Made by a program: the position numbers and the translations under genes. A stretch of 64,000 nucleotides of DNA from Oscillospiraceae bacterium (GTDB taxonomy: Bacteria > Bacillota > Clostridia > Monoglobales > Monoglobaceae): contig SVKF01000002.1 of NCBI GenBank assembly GCA_015068605.1, forward strand, positions 62,001 to 126,000, read 5' to 3'. The notes under the pieces were generated by a model. It saw only the letters and a list, made by a program, of their open reading frames with translations. It did not search any database and had not been told where the DNA came from. Below are positions 3-51,386 of this stretch, in pieces. How positions within the stretch are numbered: position 1 is the first letter of the stretch; each line of letters starts with the position of its first letter.

Positions 3-293
3 TTTATTGATTTTGGAACTGAAGTTGAAATAGATAAGCTTGTGTTTTATTTAAGGGCTGACTTCCCTCACGATTCATATTGGGACAGCGTTGAGGTCGT
101 AACGGATGACGGAGCGGTTATGAAAGCCGAATTTAAACCTACAGGTGAGGGGCAGGAGCTTATCTTCCCCGAAACAAAGATTACGAAAAAATTACATTTA
201 ACAAATTTTACACAACCGACAGAGCCTCTTTCCTGGGCAGGACTTTCCCAGATTGAGGTAATCGGCAAATACATTAAGGAGGATTTAAGTAAA
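3..293 (+). CDS. C-terminal part of a beta-sandwich (discoidin-like) domain, truncated by the window edge, in frame with kduI
   Basis: The frame is open from the first bases of the window and encodes about 97 residues (FIDFGTEVEIDKLVFYLR ... LSQIEVIGKY) before the kduI start at 294. The pattern of a hydrophobic 'IDFG..veIdkl.fylRadFpHD' strand followed by 'IEVIGKY' resembles the end of discoidin-type carbohydrate-binding domains, which often end near such an I-E-V-x-G strand. There is no stop codon between this domain and kduI, so it is either a separate gene that has lost its stop or the N-terminal part of a fusion protein. The beginning lies outside the window. Resemblance is by eye; function (sugar binding) is an inference from the neighbouring pectin genes. 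Confidence 0.55.
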
Positions 294-16628: not shown

Positions 16629-16890
16629 CCGAAAAGCCTTCCCCTTTCCCGGCTCCCTAGAGCATCAGGGAGCTGTCAGCGTAGCTGACTGAGGGATTGC
16701 CCCAAAGCCTTCTCCTTGAGGGCGGTGATTGCCGGTGGCAATCGTTTACCGCTGACCGAGGCGAGAGCCGAGACAGCTCCGCCGAAGGCGGTGGTGAGGT
16801 GTTGAAAGCACTAACAATAGAGAATACCGCTTGCGGTGATGAGGTGTCTTTTGACCGAGGGATTGTTTATCGGAATTTCCGATTAATCAA
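16629..16890 (+). repeat. Composite palindromic repeat array R1
   Basis: Part of the 802-nt gene-free stretch between the HPr gene and the S-layer gene. It is a chain of small hairpins: GCTCCCT/AGGGAGC (16652-16673), GTCAGC-gta-GCTGAC (16675-16689), ATTGCC-ggt-GGCAAT (16728-16742), CCGC-cgaag-GCGG (16779-16791), ACCGC-tt-GCGGT (16826-16837) and ATCGGA-att-TCCGAT (16869-16883). The flanks (for example CTGAGGGATTG and the AGCACTAACAATAG block) recur in the arrays at 20.3 and 23.6 kb. Open frames here are low-complexity products of the repeats and I do not call them genes. Confidence 0.8.
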
Positions 16891-17035
16891 CATTCACATG
16901 AAGGCAAGCCGACGGATGCCATGTAAACATAGGAGTTATGCCGAAAAAGAAAAATAATATATATATAATAATTATATTATTAATAAGGAAGAAAAGCAAA
17001 AATAAAAATTTTTTTAACAAAATCCTAAAAAAGAC

Positions 17036-17064
17036 TTGACATTTGGGCAAAAAAGTATTAAAAT
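17036..17064 (+). promoter_or_regulatory. Distal promoter P1 of the S-layer gene
   Basis: TTGACA at 17036-17041 and TAAAAT at 17059-17064 with a 17-nt spacer. Confidence 0.75.
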
Positions 17065-17189
17065 GGTACACGATATAATTAAAAGTGTGTCGAAGTATGC
17101 CCGAAAGAGGGAAAAGGGTGTCGAAAAACGGTAATTATTTCAGAAAAATGTGAAAAGTATTACAGTTATGTTACATTTTTAATTTATTG

Positions 17190-17218
17190 TTGACAGTAAA
17201 ATTATTTTAGTATATAAT
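17190..17218 (+). promoter_or_regulatory. Proximal promoter P2 of the S-layer gene
   Basis: TTGACA at 17190-17195 and TATAAT at 17213-17218 with a 17-nt spacer, a perfect consensus. The transcript would have a leader of about 100 nt ending in AAGGAGG (17312-17318), fitting a very highly expressed gene. Confidence 0.9.
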
Positions 17219-17328
17219 CTTATTAAGCTAAAGATTTTGCTTATCAAATTTGGTATTTAGAGGCATGGCCTTTGAATATATATAATTTTGAAAAAAAATT
17301 AAAATTTTTATAAGGAGGATTTGAGACT

Positions 17329-20256
17329 ATGAAAAATCTCAAAAGAATTATCGCTTTAGTTGCTGTTTTTGCATTAGCATTAACTACAATGGCAAGTGCT
17401 GCATCTTTCACAGATGTTGCTGACAGCAGCGCTTATTACAGAGCGGTAGAACAGTTACACAAAATTGGTATAATCGATGGTTATACTGACGGAACATTCA
17501 AACCGGAACAGACAGTTACAAGAGCTGAAATGGCTAAGTTAATCGCTGCTATGCAGGGATACGCTGAATCAGCTGAAGGCAAGAGCGTAACAAAGTTCTC
17601 TGACGTTCCTTCAACTCACTGGGCTTCAGGCTACATTGCAAGTGCAACAGGCACAGCAATCAATGGTCTTCCTGACGGAACATTTGCTCCTGACAAGCCG
17701 GTTAAGTATGAAGAAGCTGTTAAGATGATTATGGCTACACTCGGTTATACAGTTATCGCTGAAGCTGAAGGCGGCTACCCAATGGGTTACGTTTCTGCAG
17801 CTATCAAAGAAAAGGTAACTGCTGATGTTACAAATGCTAACATCGGAACAGATGCAAGCCGTGGAACAATCGCTCAGCTTATCTACAATGCTATTGATAC
17901 TCCTCTCGTAGAGCAGATCACATGGAACAAAGATGGCACAGGCGACTACATCAAGTATGATGGCGAAACAAAGTACGGCGGCAGCGCTGTTGAGTACAAG
18001 ACTCTTATGAGTGAAAACCTTGAAATCGTTAAGGCTGAAGGTGTTGTTATGAACAACTCTTACTTCGGTTTAACAGAAGATATCACATCTATCGACTTAG
18101 ACGAAGATGCAAAGGTTACAATCTCTGTTAACAAGATCTGGGGCGACGATTTTGAATACTTCACACTCAACGATGAAGCTGAACTTTTAGTTGCTGATTC
18201 TGACGCTATGGACTATGTTGGTTATGCAGTAGAGTTCTACGCTCAGGAAAACGACTATGAAGAATGGGAAGTTCTTTCTATCTTAAAGGCAAAAAGCTTC
18301 AATAAGGAAATCACATTCAACCTTTCAAGCTATGACGAGAAAGAATCTGCTGATGCTGATGCTAACGTAATCTACTACTACAAAGATAACGCTACAACAA
18401 GCACAAAGGTTACTCTCCAGAATGCAGCTGGTACTGCAGGTAATGTTGACTATATCCCTGGATACGAAATGATGTACAACTTCAAAGCTTTCGATGGTGA
18501 CATTAAGGCTACTCTCGCAGCTTTAAAGGATGCTGATTTTGGTGGTCAGGTAACACTTATCGACAACGACAAGTTCACAGGTTACGATGCAGTTATCATC
18601 GAAGCTGCTGTATCTGATGTTGTTGACGAAATCAAGACAAGCGGCGTTGCATTAAAGAACGGTGTTAAGACACCTGACGGTGGAAGAATTAAGCTTGCTG
18701 ACGATCTCGAAGATGCTCTTGTAGTTATCACAAAGGACGGCGAAGCTGCTTCCTTCGATGATATTGCTGAAGATGATGTTCTTTCTATCATCGGTAGAAA
18801 AGACGGTGCATTCACAGTTGTTGACATTATGTCAAACATAGTTGAAGGTACAATTTCTTCAACAAAGTCTTCTAAGACATCTGCAAACGACAGAGCTTAT
18901 AAGATTGATGGAACATGGTATGATGTTGCTTACGGTGCTGAAGATGCATTAGCTGGCGTTGTTGCTGGTGAAGGCGGTTCATTCTACATTGACAAGTATG
19001 GCAAGATTGCTTACTTCGTAGAAGGTGGCACATTCACAGGTAACTATGCATACGTTCTTGATACTCTTCTTGACGAAGATGACTGGGGCAACCTCGCATT
19101 CTCAATGAAGCTCTTAACAAAGGACGGTATCGCAGTATACGAAGCTGCTTCTAAGTTCACATACAATGCAGGTTCTGATTCTAACACAGTTGATGTTGAA
19201 GATGATATGACTGATGACAACACATCTGTAACAACAGGTGACGGTAGTGTTCTTAAGGGTCAGGTAATTGACTTCACACTTTCAAGCGGTAAGGTTAAGA
19301 AGATCACAGTTGAAGGCTATGCTAAGAACGATGCTGATCCTAACTTTGAATACGAAGATGGTATCGTAAATGATGAGTTTGATGCAGAAGACCTTTCAAT
19401 CGGTTCTTTAGACTTTGACGAAGATACAATCGTATTCTATATTGATACAACAACAACTGAAAATTCATACGTTGGCACACTTGCTGACCTTGAAGACAAG
19501 GCTGTTGTAAACGGTGGCGCTTATGTTGACAAACATGCTGAAGCTGATGCTAACATCGCAGTTCTTATTGATGCTGTAACAACAATCAGCCCATCAACAG
19601 GTCTTGCAGTTGTTGTTGACTTCGAATCCGGTTCAAACGACGAAGAAGATGATATCTACACATTAACACTTCTCTACGAAGGCGAAGAAGTAACTTATGA
19701 CACAACAGCTGATGTATACAATGAATACGCTGGCGACCTCACAGTTGGTGATATCGTTAAGATCAAGGTTACAGGCGCTGGTGTTATCACAAAGATGGCT
19801 TCTGTATTTGACTTCGAAGAAGATGTAAGAGGCGAAGGCGATGTTCTTAAGGTTGCTCGCGCTGCTGATGTAACACTCGGTGTTGATCCTGCTGATGATA
19901 TCGAAACAATCACAGGTGGTTACGCATTCGAATACAAGAAGACAAGCAAGAAGATCGTTGGTCTCTATGACTACGATGGAACAGAAATCGATGACAACGA
20001 ATACAGCATTTCTAAGGCTAAGAATGTATACGTAATCGATGGAACAGGCAGAGACCTCGAAGTTTACGCAGGTGCTGCAGGTGACTACGAATACGATGCT
20101 GAACTCATCAACGAAGACCTCGACGGTTTCGCAACAAACCTCGAAGATGGTACTGGTGCAAACTGGGCTGACGTTGTAATCTTCAGAACATTCGACGGCG
20201 ACGTTGTTGACGCTGTAATCATCAAGGGTTCATCTGATTGGACAATTGCTGACTAA
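17329..20256 (+). CDS. SLH-domain surface (S-layer) protein
   Basis: A 975-residue exported protein. Residues 1-24 form a signal peptide (basic MKNLKR, hydrophobic core, cleavage near MASA-A). Three SLH motifs follow: about 26-68 (FTDVADSSAYYRAVEQLHKIGIIDGY... with TVTRAEMAKLI), about 90-135 (FSDVPSTHWASGYIASA... GLPDGTFAPDKPVKYEEAVKMI) and a weaker third to about 195. SLH domains bind pyruvylated secondary wall polymer, fixing the protein to the wall. The remaining 780 residues are rich in Asp, Glu, Thr and Val, with no catalytic motif I know, as in S-layer proteins. Codon choice is strongly biased (AAC, TTC, CTC, ACA), unlike most neighbours, and two consensus promoters precede it, so it is likely among the most abundant proteins of the cell. 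Confidence 0.9.
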   Translation: MKNLKRIIALVAVFALALTTMASAASFTDVADSSAYYRAVEQLHKIGIIDGYTDGTFKPEQTVTRAEMAKLIAAMQGYAESAEGKSVTKFSDVPSTHWASGYIASATGTAINGLPDGTFAPDKPVKYEEAVKMIMATLGYTVIAEAEGGYPMGYVSAAIKEKVTADVTNANIGTDASRGTIAQLIYNAIDTPLVEQITWNKDGTGDYIKYDGETKYGGSAVEYKTLMSENLEIVKAEGVVMNNSYFGLTEDITSIDLDEDAKVTISVNKIWGDDFEYFTLNDEAELLVADSDAMDYVGYAVEFYAQENDYEEWEVLSILKAKSFNKEITFNLSSYDEKESADADANVIYYYKDNATTSTKVTLQNAAGTAGNVDYIPGYEMMYNFKAFDGDIKATLAALKDADFGGQVTLIDNDKFTGYDAVIIEAAVSDVVDEIKTSGVALKNGVKTPDGGRIKLADDLEDALVVITKDGEAASFDDIAEDDVLSIIGRKDGAFTVVDIMSNIVEGTISSTKSSKTSANDRAYKIDGTWYDVAYGAEDALAGVVAGEGGSFYIDKYGKIAYFVEGGTFTGNYAYVLDTLLDEDDWGNLAFSMKLLTKDGIAVYEAASKFTYNAGSDSNTVDVEDDMTDDNTSVTTGDGSVLKGQVIDFTLSSGKVKKITVEGYAKNDADPNFEYEDGIVNDEFDAEDLSIGSLDFDEDTIVFYIDTTTTENSYVGTLADLEDKAVVNGGAYVDKHAEADANIAVLIDAVTTISPSTGLAVVVDFESGSNDEEDDIYTLTLLYEGEEVTYDTTADVYNEYAGDLTVGDIVKIKVTGAGVITKMASVFDFEEDVRGEGDVLKVARAADVTLGVDPADDIETITGGYAFEYKKTSKKIVGLYDYDGTEIDDNEYSISKAKNVYVIDGTGRDLEVYAGAAGDYEYDAELINEDLDGFATNLEDGTGANWADVVIFRTFDGDVVDAVIIKGSSDWTIAD

Positions 20257-20288
20257 TTTAAAAAAATATTTAAGTTTAGCTTAATTTT

Positions 20289-20317
20289 CAGAGACGGGTT
20301 TATCCCGTCTCTGTTTT
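20289..20317 (+). terminator. Terminator after the S-layer gene
   Basis: A 10-bp perfect stem (20289-20298 with 20304-20313, CAGAGACGGG) with loop TTTAT and a T-rich tail. Confidence 0.9.
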
Positions 20318-20329
20318 CGTTTACCCCCC

Positions 20330-21127
20330 TCGACTGAAGGCTTCTCCTTTCTCGGCTCCCTAGAGCATCAGGGAGCTGTCACGAAGTGACTGAGGGATTG
20401 ACCCAAAGCCTCATTCTTTGACGAGCCGATGCGCACTTCACCAAAGCCTTCCCCTTGAGAGCGGTGTGTACTCCTTCCTCTAGCCTTCCCCTTTGAGGGG
20501 AAGGTGGGTTTTGCGGAGCAAAACTCGGATGAGGTGTCACTCCGTTAAGAAAACAACCCAGTGAGTTGTTTTTAGGGCGATTGAGAGCCGACAGGCTCGG
20601 CAATAAAAGGAAATGCAAAGCATTTCAACAATAGAGAATGCCGCTTGCGGTGAATGAGGTGCCTTCCTCTAGCCTTCCCCTTTGAGGGGAAGGGGGACCG
20701 CTTGCGGTGGATGAGGTGCCGGAGTGTTAAGAAAATATGCCGGTGTCGACCGTTAAGAAAACAGTTTGGCAAACTGTTTTTAGGGCGATTAGGAACGACA
20801 GTTCCGAATATCAGGTGTGGACAGATGCGCACATCTGTCCCTACGATGATGGTACGAAGTACCCGTTTTTAGGAGGGAAAAGGGAGCGACAGCGGACGAG
20901 GAATTATAGAAACTCATCAGAGTTTCTTCCACTAAATCCGTTGCGACAGCACCGATCATAAAAAGAAAATGCAAAGCATTTTCAACAAAAAAATACCGCA
21001 AGCTGACTAAGTTATCGCTAATCAAGGTAACCAAAATCTCGTATGGAACATTCACGAATTGCCCCAACATCAACCGCAATCCTCCCGTCACGCAAATGCG
21101 TGCCACCCTCCTTTACACAAGGAGGAC
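20330..21127 (+). repeat. Composite palindromic repeat array R2
   Basis: Fills most of the 1.4-kb gene-free stretch behind the S-layer gene. In order: GCTCCCT/AGGGAGC, GTCA-cgaag-TGAC (20378-20390), CCTTCCCC/GGGGAAGG, GTTTTG-cggag-CAAAAC (20508-20524), a hairpin framed by GTTAAGAAAAC and GTTTTTAGGG (20544-20577), GAGCC-gaca-GGCTC (20585-20598), AAATGC-aaa-GCATTT, ACCGC-tt-GCGGT, a second GTTAAGAAAAC frame (20752-20784), GGAAC-gaca-GTTCC (20792-20805), GACAGATG/CATCTGTC, GGTA-cgaag-TACC (20851-20863), TGC-gaca-GCA (20942-20951), AAAATGC/GCATTTT and CCTCC-tttacacaa-GGAGG (21107-21125). About 120 nt (20752-20873) align in register with array R3 on the other strand. Confidence 0.85.
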
Positions 21128-21683
21128 TTTATTATGCGGTTTTCAAGGCTCATCTGTCCACACACCAAAACCGAAATCATCATAAAAGAGCAAAATCGGT
21201 ACACGGAAAGAAAATCGATAGAGGGGCGCAGGATAAGGCAAAAAACAACGGAAAGAGCAGGATTTTCAACTATAACGACATAAACCCTAAGGCGGAACAT
21301 TCGGGCAGAAACGGGCATTTTGAGGAAAATATGGTGTTGGTTGAATTTGCACATATTTTTAAAATTAATTTATATATATTGCATAAATACCTTGAAGTTA
21401 AGCGGAAAATCGATAATGATAAAAAGGAAAAGTCAAAAAAGAGCAAAAATGAGACAAAATAAGATAAAAATATATTTAAAATCCTATTGACAAATTTGAA
21501 AATTTCTGTTAATATATACTTAAGCTATTATCGGGTGCACTCTATCTATGCCCCGATTACGATAGGAAATGCAATGCAAATTTGCTTGAAATAGCACTAA
21601 CAATGGGGAATGAGACCCGACACATTAATTTAGTAAAAAAAATTAAATAAATAAAAATTTCCATAGAAAGGGAGAGAAAAACT
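21128..21683 (+). promoter_or_regulatory. AT-rich spacer and promoter ahead of the dockerin gene
   Basis: I see no convincing gene from 21128 to 21480. A promoter follows: TTGACA at 21487-21492 and TAATAT at 21510-21515 with a 17-nt spacer. The leader of about 160 nt contains a diverged copy of the repeat family's AGGAAATGC... AGCACTAACAAT block (21563-21605) and ends with AAAGGGAGAG ahead of the ATG. Confidence 0.65.
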
Positions 21684-22352
21684 ATGAAAAAACTTATTGG
21701 AATCATCTTGGCAGTTTGTATGCTTGGAACATTAGCATCTGCTGCTGCTATCACAGACGCTGCTGCAACAGCAACAGGCTCAACTGTTTATGTTACATAC
21801 ACAGCTCTTGCTGATAACGCACAGGCTACAATGCTTGCATACAAGGTTGCTGATGATGCATCAATCGAGGTTGCAGACAGCATTAAGTATGTTGACGAAG
21901 ACACAACTCCAATCGTAGGTATCGATCAGAACGCTTCTGATGGCACATTTACTTTCAAAGTTGCTGACGATTTTGAAGGCAAAATCGTTATCAAAGTTGG
22001 TGGTACAGATGTTGATACTCCTGACGTTGTTGTTCTTGCTGACTTCGTTAAGGCAGAAGAAGGTACTGTAATCACTCTTAGCTACGGTGACGTAAATGGT
22101 GACGGTGAAGTTACAGGTATGGATGCTTCTTTGATTATTCAGTATAGTGCAAAACTTCTTACAAACTTTACTGATAGTAAAGAAAGAGAAATACCTACAG
22201 CAGTTGCTGATGTAAATGGTGATGGTGAAGTTACAGGTATGGATGCTTCTTTGGTTATTCAGTATAGTGCGAAGCTTCTTGATGGATTTACGGATAAGTA
22301 CGATAATCCATTAACAACATATACTTATACATATGTTGCTCCTGAAGCATAA
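21684..22352 (+). CDS. Small exported dockerin-domain protein
   Basis: A 222-residue protein with a signal peptide (MKKLIGIILAVCMLGTLASA-A), an unassigned beta-rich region (about 25-130) and a C-terminal dockerin. The dockerin has two copies of the calcium-binding F-hand repeat DVNGDGEVTGMDASLIIQYS, at about residues 136-159 and 176-199, with D-x-N-x-D spacing intact. Dockerins bind cohesins to build extracellular complexes. There is no catalytic domain, so this looks like a structural or adaptor subunit. The cohesin protein encoded 37 nt downstream is its obvious candidate partner. Codon use resembles the S-layer gene (high expression). Own promoter at 21487. Confidence 0.85.
   Translation: MKKLIGIILAVCMLGTLASAAAITDAAATATGSTVYVTYTALADNAQATMLAYKVADDASIEVADSIKYVDEDTTPIVGIDQNASDGTFTFKVADDFEGKIVIKVGGTDVDTPDVVVLADFVKAEEGTVITLSYGDVNGDGEVTGMDASLIIQYSAKLLTNFTDSKEREIPTAVADVNGDGEVTGMDASLVIQYSAKLLDGFTDKYDNPLTTYTYTYVAPEA
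22089..22280 (+). repeat. Tandem DNA repeat encoding the two dockerin F-hands
   Basis: Two 72-nt units (22089-22160 and 22209-22280, 120 nt apart) differ at only about six positions, mostly silent, which points to a recent duplication or to gene conversion between the halves. Confidence 0.85.
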
Positions 22353-22389
22353 TTCAAAACAAAATTTAAGAAAGAGGTAAAAGATTATT

Positions 22390-23361
22390 ATGAAAAAATT
22401 TTTATCATTAATTTTAGCTTTGACTCTTGTTGCGTCTCTTTGTGCGGTTAATGTTATGGCTGCAGCAAAAGTTCATACGGTAGGTCTTTCTGCAAGTAAG
22501 ACAGAAGCTTTAACAGCTGGTGAAACAATTGTAGTAGAGGTGACAATTGACAATACGTTAAACTTGGTTAATGTTGATTATGATTTAGTTTATGATGCAG
22601 ATGCATTTGAGGTTAATTTAACTAAAGTAAGTCGTTTAGAAACATTTATTGATAAGACATGGTATGACGGTCTTAAAGATACCGATGGTGACTGGGGTTA
22701 TTACATGAATGGTGCTCCTACTATTAATGGTAACGAGGCTGGTGTAATATACTTTAGAGCTGCTGGTGGTGCGAATGGCGGTGTTGAAGATGAATACGAT
22801 GTAGATAACAGAGTTATCGGTAAGTACAATCTCAATGTAAAAGCTGATGCTCCTGATGGAACATATGAAATCAAGGTGATAAACGGAAAAACTGGAGATG
22901 CTGGTGAAACGCAGCCTGCTGCTATGGAACCTGTTGCTATCACAGTAAAAGTTGGCACACCTGGTCCTGTTGGTCCTGTAGTAGAAAAGACAGAAGCAAT
23001 TGCTGACAATGGTATTACAATTGATGGTGTAACATACGACAACGCATTTGGTGTTAATGCAACAATCACACCTACTGACGAAGCAACAGAAATCGGTGTT
23101 CTCTTTGCTCCTGCTCTCTGGCTTAGCGAAATTGGCGCAGAACAACTTACAGTTGGTCTTGAAGGTGCAAAGAACGTATCTAAGACAGGTCTTGTAGGCG
23201 GAACAGCTGTAACATTCAAAGCTGCTATCAAGGATATTCCAAGAGGTCTTACAGGTGAATCATTTGATATGGTAACAAGAGCATATGCTAAAGATGACGA
23301 AGCTGTTACTTATGCTGATGCTCTTACAACAGCAGTTCTCTTTAGTAACACAGGTAAATAA
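22390..23361 (+). CDS. Exported cohesin-domain protein
   Basis: A 323-residue protein with a signal peptide (MKKFLSLILALTLVASLCAVNVMA-A). Residues about 27-195 resemble a cohesin: 'VGLSASKTEALTAGETIVVEVTIDNTLNLVNVDYDLVYDADAFEV' at the start and 'GKYNLNVKADAPDGTYEIKV' towards the end, matching the usual order of strands. A short Gly-Pro linker (PGPVGPV) leads to a second beta-rich domain (about 205-323) that I cannot name. Cohesins receive dockerins; the upstream gene encodes a dockerin. No SLH, sortase or membrane anchor is visible, so how it stays at the surface is unclear. Same codon bias and operon as the dockerin gene. Confidence 0.78.
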   Translation: MKKFLSLILALTLVASLCAVNVMAAAKVHTVGLSASKTEALTAGETIVVEVTIDNTLNLVNVDYDLVYDADAFEVNLTKVSRLETFIDKTWYDGLKDTDGDWGYYMNGAPTINGNEAGVIYFRAAGGANGGVEDEYDVDNRVIGKYNLNVKADAPDGTYEIKVINGKTGDAGETQPAAMEPVAITVKVGTPGPVGPVVEKTEAIADNGITIDGVTYDNAFGVNATITPTDEATEIGVLFAPALWLSEIGAEQLTVGLEGAKNVSKTGLVGGTAVTFKAAIKDIPRGLTGESFDMVTRAYAKDDEAVTYADALTTAVLFSNTGK

Positions 23362-23402
23362 TTGTTATTCAAAAAAAATTTATCGGAAAGGTGATTGCAA
23401 TT

Positions 23403-23579
23403 ATGAAAAAGTTATTTGAAATGCCTTCAATTGAGCTTACAAAGTTTGATGTTGAAGATGTTATCACAGCCAGCACAAATCTTATCAGCGAAAAGGATTT
23501 TGCAGATATGATGGGTGAAGGTTCAGAAGTTACAACATGGAACAGTGATTGGAACGAAAGCTTAGGCTTAGGCATCTAA
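23403..23579 (+). CDS. 58-residue peptide with PSIEL...VEDVITAS motif
   Basis: A short gene in the same operon, 41 nt behind the cohesin gene, ending just before a strong terminator. ATG 23403 is preferred over the in-frame GTG at 23391 because AAAGG (23388-23392) sits about 10 nt before it. The product has no signal peptide or membrane helix. The start MKKLFEMPSIELTKFDVEDVITAS follows a pattern (MKK-x(3,4)-P-x-(I/L)-E ... (E/D)DVIT-(A/T)-S) that I have seen in unnamed short proteins of Clostridia; the rest is acidic with two Trp (TTWNSDWNESLGLGI). Function unknown. The operon position suggests a link to export or assembly of the cohesin/dockerin proteins, or a secreted or processed peptide. 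Confidence 0.7.
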   Translation: MKKLFEMPSIELTKFDVEDVITASTNLISEKDFADMMGEGSEVTTWNSDWNESLGLGI

Positions 23580-23592
23580 TTTAAAAAAGATA

Positions 23593-23623
23593 AGGCGGAG
23601 ATTAAATCTCCGCCTTTTTTTTG
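23593..23623 (+). terminator. Terminator of the dockerin-cohesin-peptide operon
   Basis: An 11-bp perfect stem (23593-23603 with 23605-23615, AGGCGGAGATT) with a run of eight T residues. The single-base loop means the stem will open to a slightly larger loop. Confidence 0.92.
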
Positions 23624-23639
23624 TGTTATAATGATTTAT

Positions 23640-24100
23640 CGGGTAGTATACGATATTTTCCATTGTTGAAATGCTTTGCATTTTCTTTTTATGGTCGGAA
23701 CTGTCGTTCCTATCCTCTCTAAAAATGGGTACTTCGTACCATCATCGTAGGGACAGATGCCCACATCTGTCCGCACCGGATATTCGGTGCTGTCGCACCT
23801 ATTCGCCCAAAAAACAGTTTACCAAACTGTTTTCTTAACGGGCGACACCGGCATATTTTCTTAACGCACCGGCGTATTTTCTTAACGGTCGACACCTCAT
23901 CCGAGTTTGCTTCGCAAACCCACCTTCCCCTCAAAGGGGAAGGCTGGGAGGGGAGCACACACTCCGGCACCTTGAGGGGAAGGCAGGGAGGGAGCACACA
24001 CTCCGACACCTTGAGGGGAAGGCCTTGGGGGCAATCCCTCAGTCACTTCGTGACAGCTCCCTTTACACAAGGGAGCCGAGAAAAGGGAAGGGGGAAGGTT
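23640..24100 (-). repeat. Composite palindromic repeat array R3 (opposite orientation to R1/R2)
   Basis: The 522 nt between the operon terminator and the GH3 gene. Read on the minus strand it holds the same hairpin series as R2: CTCCC-tttacacaa-GGGAG type (24057-24075), GTCA-cgaag-TGAC (24042-24054), CCTTCCCC/GGGGAAGG, GTTTG-cgaag-CAAAC (23905-23919), three GTTAAGAAAA units, GGTGC-gaca-GCACC (23786-23799), GACAGATG/CATCTGTC, GGTA-cgaag-TACC (23728-23740), GGAAC-gaca-GTTCC (23697-23710) and AAATGC/GCATTT. Compared with R2 several stems have changed in both arms. Its left end stops about 20 nt after the operon terminator and its right end touches the 3' end of the GH3 gene. Confidence 0.85.
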
Positions 24101-48489: not shown

Positions 48490-48799
48490 ATAAAAAAGTC
48501 CTCTGCAATCCTGTTTTAAGGATACAGAGGACGAAAATAACATTTCCGTGGTACCACCTCAGTTCGTCGCTATCTCACAACAGCGACCTTATCAGGTACA
48601 GCCATACCTTAGTTCTGTAACGGGAACGCCCGTTGCATCCTACTAAAGATTTCTCTCGTTCAGCGCACTGCTAACAGAAGGAATTCGAGAAGGACACCCC
48701 ATTTGCCTCGCACCAACCGGCAACTCTCTCCATGTTCTTTCCAACCTACTGATTTCTGCTCAAACGCATTTAAATGTGTATATCACACTATTAATCTTT
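48490..48799 (-). ncRNA. T-box leader with a phenylalanine (UUC) specifier
   Basis: The leader of the aromatic operon. The T-box sequence AGGTGGTACCACGG is at 48559-48546 (minus strand), followed by a terminator hairpin (48532-48498, GTCCTCTG.../...GCAGAGGAC) and a run of U. In stem I the 3' side of the specifier loop reads CTCGAATTCC: GAA followed by UUC (48683-48681), closed by CAGAA/TTCTG, with AGTA on the opposite side. The AGAGAG and GGTTGGTGCGA elements of the distal stem I are also present. Uncharged tRNA-Phe should therefore open the operon, which carries pheA. The specifier is read by eye. Confidence 0.9.
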
Positions 48800-51008: not shown

Positions 51009-51109
51009 CAGACCACTGACAAACTCGGTCTACCGCAAGCAAGCTATATTTATAGGGTGAAACGCAGAGATAGATTTTATAGACTATCCGCATAAAATAG
51101 CATAGAAAA

Positions 51110-51141
51110 CGGCAAGAGAAATATCGAATTTCCCTTGCCGT
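51110..51141. other. Isolated hairpin in a 491-nt gene-free stretch
   Basis: ACGGCAAGAGAAAT pairs with ATTTCCCTTGCCGT (one G-T pair) around a 4-nt loop; may be a second terminator. The rest of 51009-51164 shows nothing I recognise. Confidence 0.45.
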
Positions 51142-51164
51142 TGCTTGCTTTTTGCGAAATCGTT

Positions 51165-51290
51165 CTCTACCGTACCATCGGACGCCGACGTCACTCCGTT
51201 AAGAAAACAATCCTGTGAATTGTTTTCAGGAGGGAAAAGGGAGCGACAGCGGACGAGGAAAAGAAAAATCCGTTAGGATTTTAACAACTG
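51165..51290 (+). repeat. Composite palindromic repeat array R4 (short)
   Basis: A small array of the same family as R1-R3: TCACTCCGTTAAGAAAAC then a hairpin (AACAAT...ATTGTT), TTTTCAGGAGGGAAAAGGG, the GAGCGACAGCGGACGAGG block also seen in R2 at 20883-20901, and AAAGAAAAATCC-gtta-GGATTTT in the position where R2 has AAAGAAAATGC-aaa-GCATTTT. Confidence 0.75.
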
Positions 51291-51386
51291 TCAACGATTT
51301 CACAAAATATACACTTCGTTTCTCAATGTCTGCCCAGCTTAATGACTTTGTCATTAAGCTGAAGGCGGTTTATATTATTAAAACAC

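Follow-up and report, generated by a model that had tools for sequence, protein, structure and literature searches.

Two families of covarying hairpins in the palindromic arrays of a Clostridia genome are probably ends and remnants of very small DUF559 elements

The window analysed here (a stretch of 64,000 nt, G000:C12:62001-126000, part of a 1.59 Mb MAG that is 83% complete) contains three arrays of small hairpins, R1, R2 and R3, whose copies differ in both arms of a stem together while loops and outer flanks stay constant, and this raises the question of why a fold should be kept when its sequence is not. The hairpins on which the original prediction was based were all present. Those with a GACA loop were found as GAGCC/GGCTC at 20585, GGAAC/GTTCC at 20792 and 23697 (minus strand), GGTGC/GCACC at 23786 (minus strand) and TGC/GCA at 20942, those with a TTTACACAA loop as CCTCC/GGAGG at 21107 and CTCCC/GGGAG at about 24057, and the comparison of 20785-20815 with its counterpart in R3, where the context is the same and AAC/GTT has become TGC/GCA, held as described. 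The arrays were not made of one family in a fixed order, as had been supposed, but combine modules from four or more families, here called A, B, C and D. Module A hairpins are GGCTCCC/GCCTCCC with a loop that is often TTGTGTAAA, the module B hairpin is CCTTCCCC-TTTGA-GGGGAAGG, module C consists of CGTTAAG-AAAAC..GTTTT-TAGGGCGA followed by a GACA-loop hairpin, and in module D GTAGG adjoins a GACAGATG/CATCTGTC hairpin.

Copies of modules A and B have the structure of element ends, each a double hairpin consisting of a hairpin H1, a variable hairpin H2 and a G-rich tail, and occur as left-type (LE) and right-type (RE) ends. The A-family RE end of R1 (16651..16699, plus strand) has H1 GGCTCCCT-AGAGCATC-AGGGAGC, H2 GTCAGC-GTA-GCTGAC and tail TGAGGGATTG; its H1 foot pair is G:C and its tail T, matching 97/97 G:C ends in the unbiased set. 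The corresponding end of R2 (20354..20400, plus strand), which matches that of R1 with 91% over 77 nt (blastn), has the same H1 and tail and H2 GTCAC-GAA-GTGAC. This H2 and tail are also found in the A-family RE end of R3 (24032..24077, minus strand), with H1 GGCTCCC-TTGTGTAAA-GGGAGC, and an A-family LE end is located in R2 (21077..21126, minus strand), with loop TTGTGTAAA in H1 (CCTCC/GGAGG), H2 CACGC/GCGTG and tail GGGAGGATTG. The two stems with a TTTACACAA loop differ in pairs as claimed, but they are not arbitrary copies: one belongs to the left and the other to the right end of a single element family. The B family is represented by three LE ends with the same H1 (CCTTCCCC-TTTGA-GGGGAAGG) and the same tail (GGATGAGGTG), two in R2 on the plus strand (20483..20536, where TGG precedes H2 GTTTTGC-GGA-GCAAAAC, and 20672..20718, with H2 ACCG-CTTG-CGGT) and one in R3 on the minus strand (23893..23944, G000:C12:85893-85938:-, with H2 GTTTGC-GAA-GCAAAC). 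An initial exact search with a 30-nt module A core from the R3 RE end (GGGAGCTGTCACGAAGTGACTGAGGGATTG) showed that it recurs in at least 118 stretches of other Clostridia, MAGs as well as isolates, and the elements seen at these loci are bounded by two ends in inverted orientation with about 30-60 nt between them.

The H2 hairpins were collected with the stem left free in the search, as a safeguard against query bias. Of the 241 different H2 strings obtained, 85% could form a perfect stem of 4 bp or more, as compared to 16% after shuffling, and 74% one of 5 bp or more, as compared to 4%. From pair counts in two ungapped sets, covariation was 0.513 for 31 sequences (0.121 shuffled) and 0.647 for 25 sequences (0.141 shuffled), with 0/500 shuffles reaching the observed value in either set and slid controls at about 0.10 or less. 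The inner pairs alternated between GC and AT in both sets with G.T intermediates almost absent, and in the 31-sequence set the inner four pairs had zero mismatched and zero G.U cells. Given 105 different 5' arms, and hence many independent stems, and covariation above all shuffles, the claim that the fold rather than the sequence is kept was borne out.

Wholesale stem changes in which mismatched or G.T intermediates are almost absent could also arise if the stems were rewritten by template switching within the inverted repeat, so that the fold persisted without selection, and partial tandem copies of an H1 arm (L074, L163) point in the same direction. Template switching does not, however, predict the GNA/GNNA loop preference described below, the left/right polarity rule or the fixed flanks and tails, and we consider it improbable as an explanation of the fold. 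As the origin of new stems, one-step rewriting of one arm from the other, the third cause put forward in the original prediction, may still apply.

The loops indicate in which nucleic acid the hairpins are likely to form. RNA hairpins would favour GNRA loops. Of the triloops on stems of at least 4 bp, 80/129 were GNA loops of the d(cGNAg) type, to be compared with 18% GNA or TNC among all perfect triloop hairpins in the same bacterial loci. Among the tetraloops 33/68 were GNNA, divided into 16 GNRA and 17 GNYA, and the GACA loops of the module C hairpins are cGNNAg loops as well. Exceptionally stable DNA mini-hairpins require a GNA or GNNA loop together with at least two G-C pairs (PMC4686876), and GNA and GNNA loops without a preference for GNRA favour selection on a DNA hairpin. 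That the hairpins are RNA structures (terminators, riboregulators or structured RNA) under selection on transcripts is quite unlikely: R1-R3 copies are situated between long ORFs and a T run often comes after the H1 of RE ends (L265, L268), so that some copies may double as terminators, but the loops follow the DNA rule, G.U is nearly absent from the inner pairs, and an RNA function would leave mobile units with terminal inverted repeats (TIRs) and presence/absence differences unexplained. A scan of the arrays and elements against Rfam gave no RNA family match, and a known RNA family was rejected for the hairpins on this basis; matches elsewhere were limited to a T-box in the window (a leader at 48524-48773, minus strand, RF00230, 99 bits) and to tRNA, tmRNA and Gut-1 in the loci scanned. 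Of the three proposed causes, DNA hairpins fit best, as judged from loops and inner pairs, and structured RNA was not supported by loop type or Rfam.

In a complete element the LE end consists of H1, TGG, a variable H2 and tail GGAGGGATTG or GGATGAGGTG, and the RE end, which is inverted, of H1, TGTC, H2 and tail TGAGGGATTG or TGATGAGG. The two ends enclose either about 30-60 bp, giving a MITE-like unit of about 150 bp, or one PF04480/DUF559 gene of 115-160 aa, giving a unit of about 445 bp; at L128, for example, a small ORF located precisely between two inverted ends belongs to PF04480/DUF559 (E 3e-29). A PF04480 search of 291 Clostridia genomes gave matches in 79 and about 60 stand-alone ORFs of 115-160 aa, most of which begin directly after the LE tail and many of which end within or just before RE. 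In a blind test, a terminal inverted repeat score of at least 14 was obtained for 38/56 Clostridia DUF559 ORFs and for 0/97 control ORFs, these being other ORFs of the same loci (maximum 12). Pairwise blastn of loci from different host families placed the limits of homology at about ATG-54..57 and stop+25..31 in most pairs, one A-element sub-group having a longer common unit. These limits are the outer bases of H1, beyond which the flanks are unrelated, and the unit is therefore LE-DUF559-RE of about 445 bp.

The ends are polar. When ends fixed by the queries were left out, the foot of H1 was C:G with tail G or G:C with tail T in 225/229 ends, and 94/104 convergent pairs combined one LE with one RE class. 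In loci chosen without regard to DUF559, 41/42 convergent pairs were of MITE-type size (100-200 bp); the one longer pair found without DUF559, at L237, spans about 1.7 kb, with 1.6 kb inside. In the MAG of the window itself the only DUF559 gene is truncated and has ends of another type (TTGCCTAAA; L170), which makes the A and B copies in the window non-autonomous at present.

That MITE-sized copies without DUF559 far outnumber the others (the same 41/42 pairs), and that some copies are nested within longer TIR elements (G195), would be expected if DUF559 were a passenger captured between the ends of MITEs that are moved by an unrelated transposase. Such capture is unlikely given that most stand-alone DUF559 genes in Clostridia carry ends of this kind, and that these ends belong to at least four families and are found also outside Clostridia.

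Comparison with congeners showed that elements are present in some and absent in others at orthologous sites. In G017 an array of 838 bp that includes DUF559 separates the next gene's RBS from its promoter (L285), and in a joined-flank search the site was empty in the congeners G006 and G013, which gave a continuous match of 90-93% identity with promoter and RBS kept; at the junction only an ambiguous short repeat is possible. The L297 site was empty in three congeners (G160, G245 and G205), and G160 has at this site a single H1-like hairpin, GCCTTCCCC-TCGA-GGGGAAGCC, whose 5' arm is of LE type and whose 3' arm is of RE type; this hairpin is either a scar or the target. The L282 element was absent from congeners, and in the L264 intergenic region the end families differ between congeners. 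Within one genome, elements were found at different loci (G127, G265 and G006). On the DUF559 tree, with the classes of the ends labelled by eye, end families B (13/13) and C (7/7) were monophyletic (100/99) and A formed one clade plus two; end family tracked DUF559 clade and not host family, f22, f49, f23 and f14 being scattered over the tree; such co-segregation of ends and gene is partly what linkage would lead one to expect.

Direct repeats of the flanks were found at L143 (43 nt, around a B element and two A half-elements), L072 (at least 26 nt), L270 (about 60 nt), L282 (about 65 nt) and L271 (about 125 nt). A constant target-site duplication was in general not found, only 4/75 elements being above the 99% null, and a universal long target duplication was rejected, as it was clear at few loci and generally not above null; a second scan for flank duplications that included solitary ends gave too few cases to use. 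At L143 (4040-4900), L271 and L270 it is the 3' end of the neighbouring gene that is duplicated across the DUF559 element (43 to about 125 nt), as if the insertion spares the gene by making a copy of that end.

The DUF559 protein has a predicted nuclease fold of the Vsr/I-Bth0305I type. An AlphaFold model (pLDDT 75) had as its best fold match the catalytic domain of the homing endonuclease I-Bth0305I (3r3p, prob 1.00, TMt 0.80), followed by 3hrl, an uncharacterised endonuclease-like protein that was also the best sequence match, and, lower-ranked, by E. coli Vsr (1vsr, prob 0.95, TM 0.58-0.65). The invariant residues include R17, T21, E24, D51, F52, Y53, E62, D64, H68, D77 and R80. In Caulobacter the DUF559 protein VsrA (CCNA_02930) causes DNA damage in cells without a cytosine methylase (PMC12907096), which fits a DNA nuclease; it is read there as a mismatch-repair enzyme, and the accessible text does not discuss mobile ends.

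Beyond Clostridia, DUF559 genes on Deinococcus and Sphingomonas plasmids likewise lie between hairpin-bearing TIRs, with scores of 24-57 against a shuffled 99% level of about 12, and the insertions are located inside operons (paaD/paaZ, hpa genes, sufB/sufC and pntAA/pntAB). At Sphingomonas L366 the parts follow in the same order, H1 - GGG - H2 with GAA loop - GGAGGGG. The DUF559 copies examined in E. coli, Sinorhizobium and Synechocystis had no such ends.

Insertion between conserved operon genes such as sufB/sufC, paaD/paaZ and pntAA/pntAB, a nearest fold that is that of the homing endonuclease I-Bth0305I, and duplicated flanks at some loci, which resemble aberrant break repair, together suggest another possibility, that DUF559 is a free-standing homing endonuclease gene whose spread is confined to one and the same site in homologous loci, with hairpins that are incidental. 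Classical homing requires allelic flank homology, whereas the flanks of related copies are unrelated beyond H1 and a single genome has copies at different loci (G127, G265, G006), and we regard this possibility as rather unlikely. The DUF559 elements share with I-Bth0305I, the EDxHD homing endonucleases and Vsr a predicted catalytic fold and invariant acidic and His residues, and differ from homing endonucleases in being scattered in a transposition-like manner, with structured ends and no single allelic site; no intron or intein was seen.

Among the closest known systems is REP/REPIN with RAYT (TnpA-REP, a Y1 HUH protein; PMC3116915, PMC6006769), which likewise comprises short intergenic palindromes in inverted pairs, solitary ends and clusters, and in which a single small nuclease, thought to work on hairpins in DNA, mobilises the palindromes in trans. 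Pairs of A or B ends have the REPIN-type layout of two inverted palindromic units with a short spacer, mostly within 100-200 bp. The DUF559 nuclease differs from RAYT in its PD-(D/E)XK/Vsr fold (predicted) instead of Y1 HUH, and the A/B ends differ from REPs in lacking the GTAG-type tetranucleotide, although module D has CGTAGG beside its hairpin, and in that each end has a second hairpin of free stem sequence. REP/RAYT was rejected as mobiliser of A and B, the gene between the ends being PF04480 (E 3e-29) and not Y1 (PF01797); the window's own genome had one partial Y1_Tnp match at a contig edge, not linked to the arrays. Elements of the IS200/IS605 group (IS608, ISDra2; PMC6006769) are also minimal elements with one gene, and their ends are recognised through secondary structure, as the DUF559 ends may be, but the latter lack a tyrosine HUH transposase and have true terminal inverted repeats that bound a single mobile unit and bear a left/right polarity mark. 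Classical MITEs of DDE insertion sequences resemble the present copies in being non-autonomous, about 150 bp long and bounded by TIRs of about 50 nt; the present copies differ in that the gene associated with them encodes a DUF559 nuclease and their TIRs contain covarying hairpins, and they apparently lack a short target duplication of fixed length.

What has to be explained is thus a unit with defined boundaries, polar ends and MITE derivatives that is present or absent between congeners and has unrelated flanks between hosts. In our view modules A and B are probably the ends and MITE-type remnants of very small DUF559 elements whose hairpins are recognised by shape, and being the ends of a mobile element would be why the hairpin fold is kept. 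H1 and H2 would be extruded or exposed as single-stranded DNA hairpins and recognised by the DUF559 nuclease by shape, so that any stem would serve and H2 stems could change in pairs over time, with selection preserving only a stable mini-hairpin with a GNA/GNNA loop. The nuclease would then cut at hairpin ends, including old intergenic ones, and repair from an element copy would insert LE..RE at the cut, with template switching in repair sometimes duplicating tens of bases of flank. Repeated events at one place could pile up ends into arrays like R1-R3.

We also lean towards a broader reading, in which minimal transposons of an unrecognised class occur throughout bacteria and have PF04480/DUF559 as their only mobility protein, with ends read by shape as single-stranded or cruciform DNA hairpins (H1 with a conserved loop, H2 with an arbitrary stem). 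MITEs of this class would then account for much of the palindromic repeat content between genes in gut Clostridia, and probably in Sphingomonas and Deinococcus too. The elements are apparently a kind of jumping gene, with DUF559 as its only protein, that has been unrecognised until now; in the accessible portions of the open-access literature nothing was found that ties DUF559 to such ends or to repeats, and the novelty of DUF559 elements, judged on open-access literature alone, is not proven. If true, the reading given here would assign a role to a domain that is widespread but functionally uncharacterised, account for a large part of what are called 'palindromic repeats' in gut Clostridia and add a class of transposons that uses a Vsr-type nuclease. 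It would also be a natural case in which the shape of DNA rather than RNA hairpins is selected, with more than 100 stem sequences between fixed flanks and loops that obey the DNA mini-hairpin rule. Synthetic hairpins and the nuclease, which is about 120 aa long, would allow a direct test.

Modules C and D belong to other families and are not accounted for by DUF559. Module C is found in R2 on the plus strand at 20543..20607 (CGTTAAG-AAAACAAC..GTTGTTTT-TAGGGCGA, then the GACA-loop hairpin GAGCC/GGCTC) and at 20751..20807 (a AAAACAGTTT/AAACTGTTTT hairpin, then GGAAC/GTTCC with a GACA loop), and in R3 on the minus strand at 23784..23840 (again AAAACAGTTT/AAACTGTTTT, then GGTGC/GCACC with a GACA loop); an additional GACA-loop hairpin, GGAAC/GTTCC, is located at 23695..23711 (minus strand). 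In a search in which 6-18 inner nt of the stem-loop were left free, the inner stem was perfect over 4 bp or more in 11/13 distinct copies, as read by eye, with AGTTT/AAACT, AGTTC/GAACT, GTGCC/GGCAC, CCGTTC/GAACGG, AATCC/GGATT, AGTCC/GGACT and GATT/AATC between fixed flanks. By analogy with A and B only, these hairpins might be explained in the same way. In other Clostridia, module C (CGTTAAGAAAAC-hairpin) was close to a tRNA or tmRNA gene (Pro, Lys, Thr-Lys, Trp, tmRNA) in 10/11 loci (L422, L423, L426-L431, L433 and L434), and its flanks in G059 carry copies of the tRNA 3' end; the window, with module C at 20543-20607, 20751-20807 and 23784-23840, has no tRNA gene, and module C had no match in viral contigs. 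Module D is found on the plus strand in R2 (20814..20845, GGACAGATG-CGCA-CATCTGTCC followed by CTACG, which on the reverse strand reads CGTAGG plus hairpin and looks REP-like) and in R3 (23746..23772, GTAGGGACAGATG-CCCA-CATCTGTCC).

Several minor features were observed near the modules and elements. In L004 (1200-1791; own genome C26:12818-13028 and C16:1-48) module C forms a tandem repeat with about 65-70 nt from the 3' terminus of the gene upstream (...PKDIKEYLEKALKG stop), and this repeat breaks the assembly at contig ends. An apparent group II intron 3' end (RT C-terminus and GAACCGCCGTGTACCGAACG motif) abuts a module C derivative in L015 (1-260), and related stretches without the intron end are present in the window at 51010-51320 and in L003. 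At L074 and L163 the H1 5' arm GGCTCCCTTGT is repeated 3-4 times ahead of a complete H1, suggesting slippage or template switching. DUF559 is flanked by direct double ends (RE, 6 nt, LE) at L264 and L261 (G029, G027), as in a circular-junction-like or tandem form. B-type MITEs are nested within longer TIR elements (ATACTAATCCCAATTAAA..., GGTAACAATGACAG...) in G195 (L317-L326), and the interior is inverted relative to the ends at L317. Finally, tandem TGTCGAA boxes, which are Spo0A-box-like, and a GCATCTAAACCTTATGTGTCGCAAT repeat are located beside DUF559 elements at L170, L276, L279, L280, L281 and L284.
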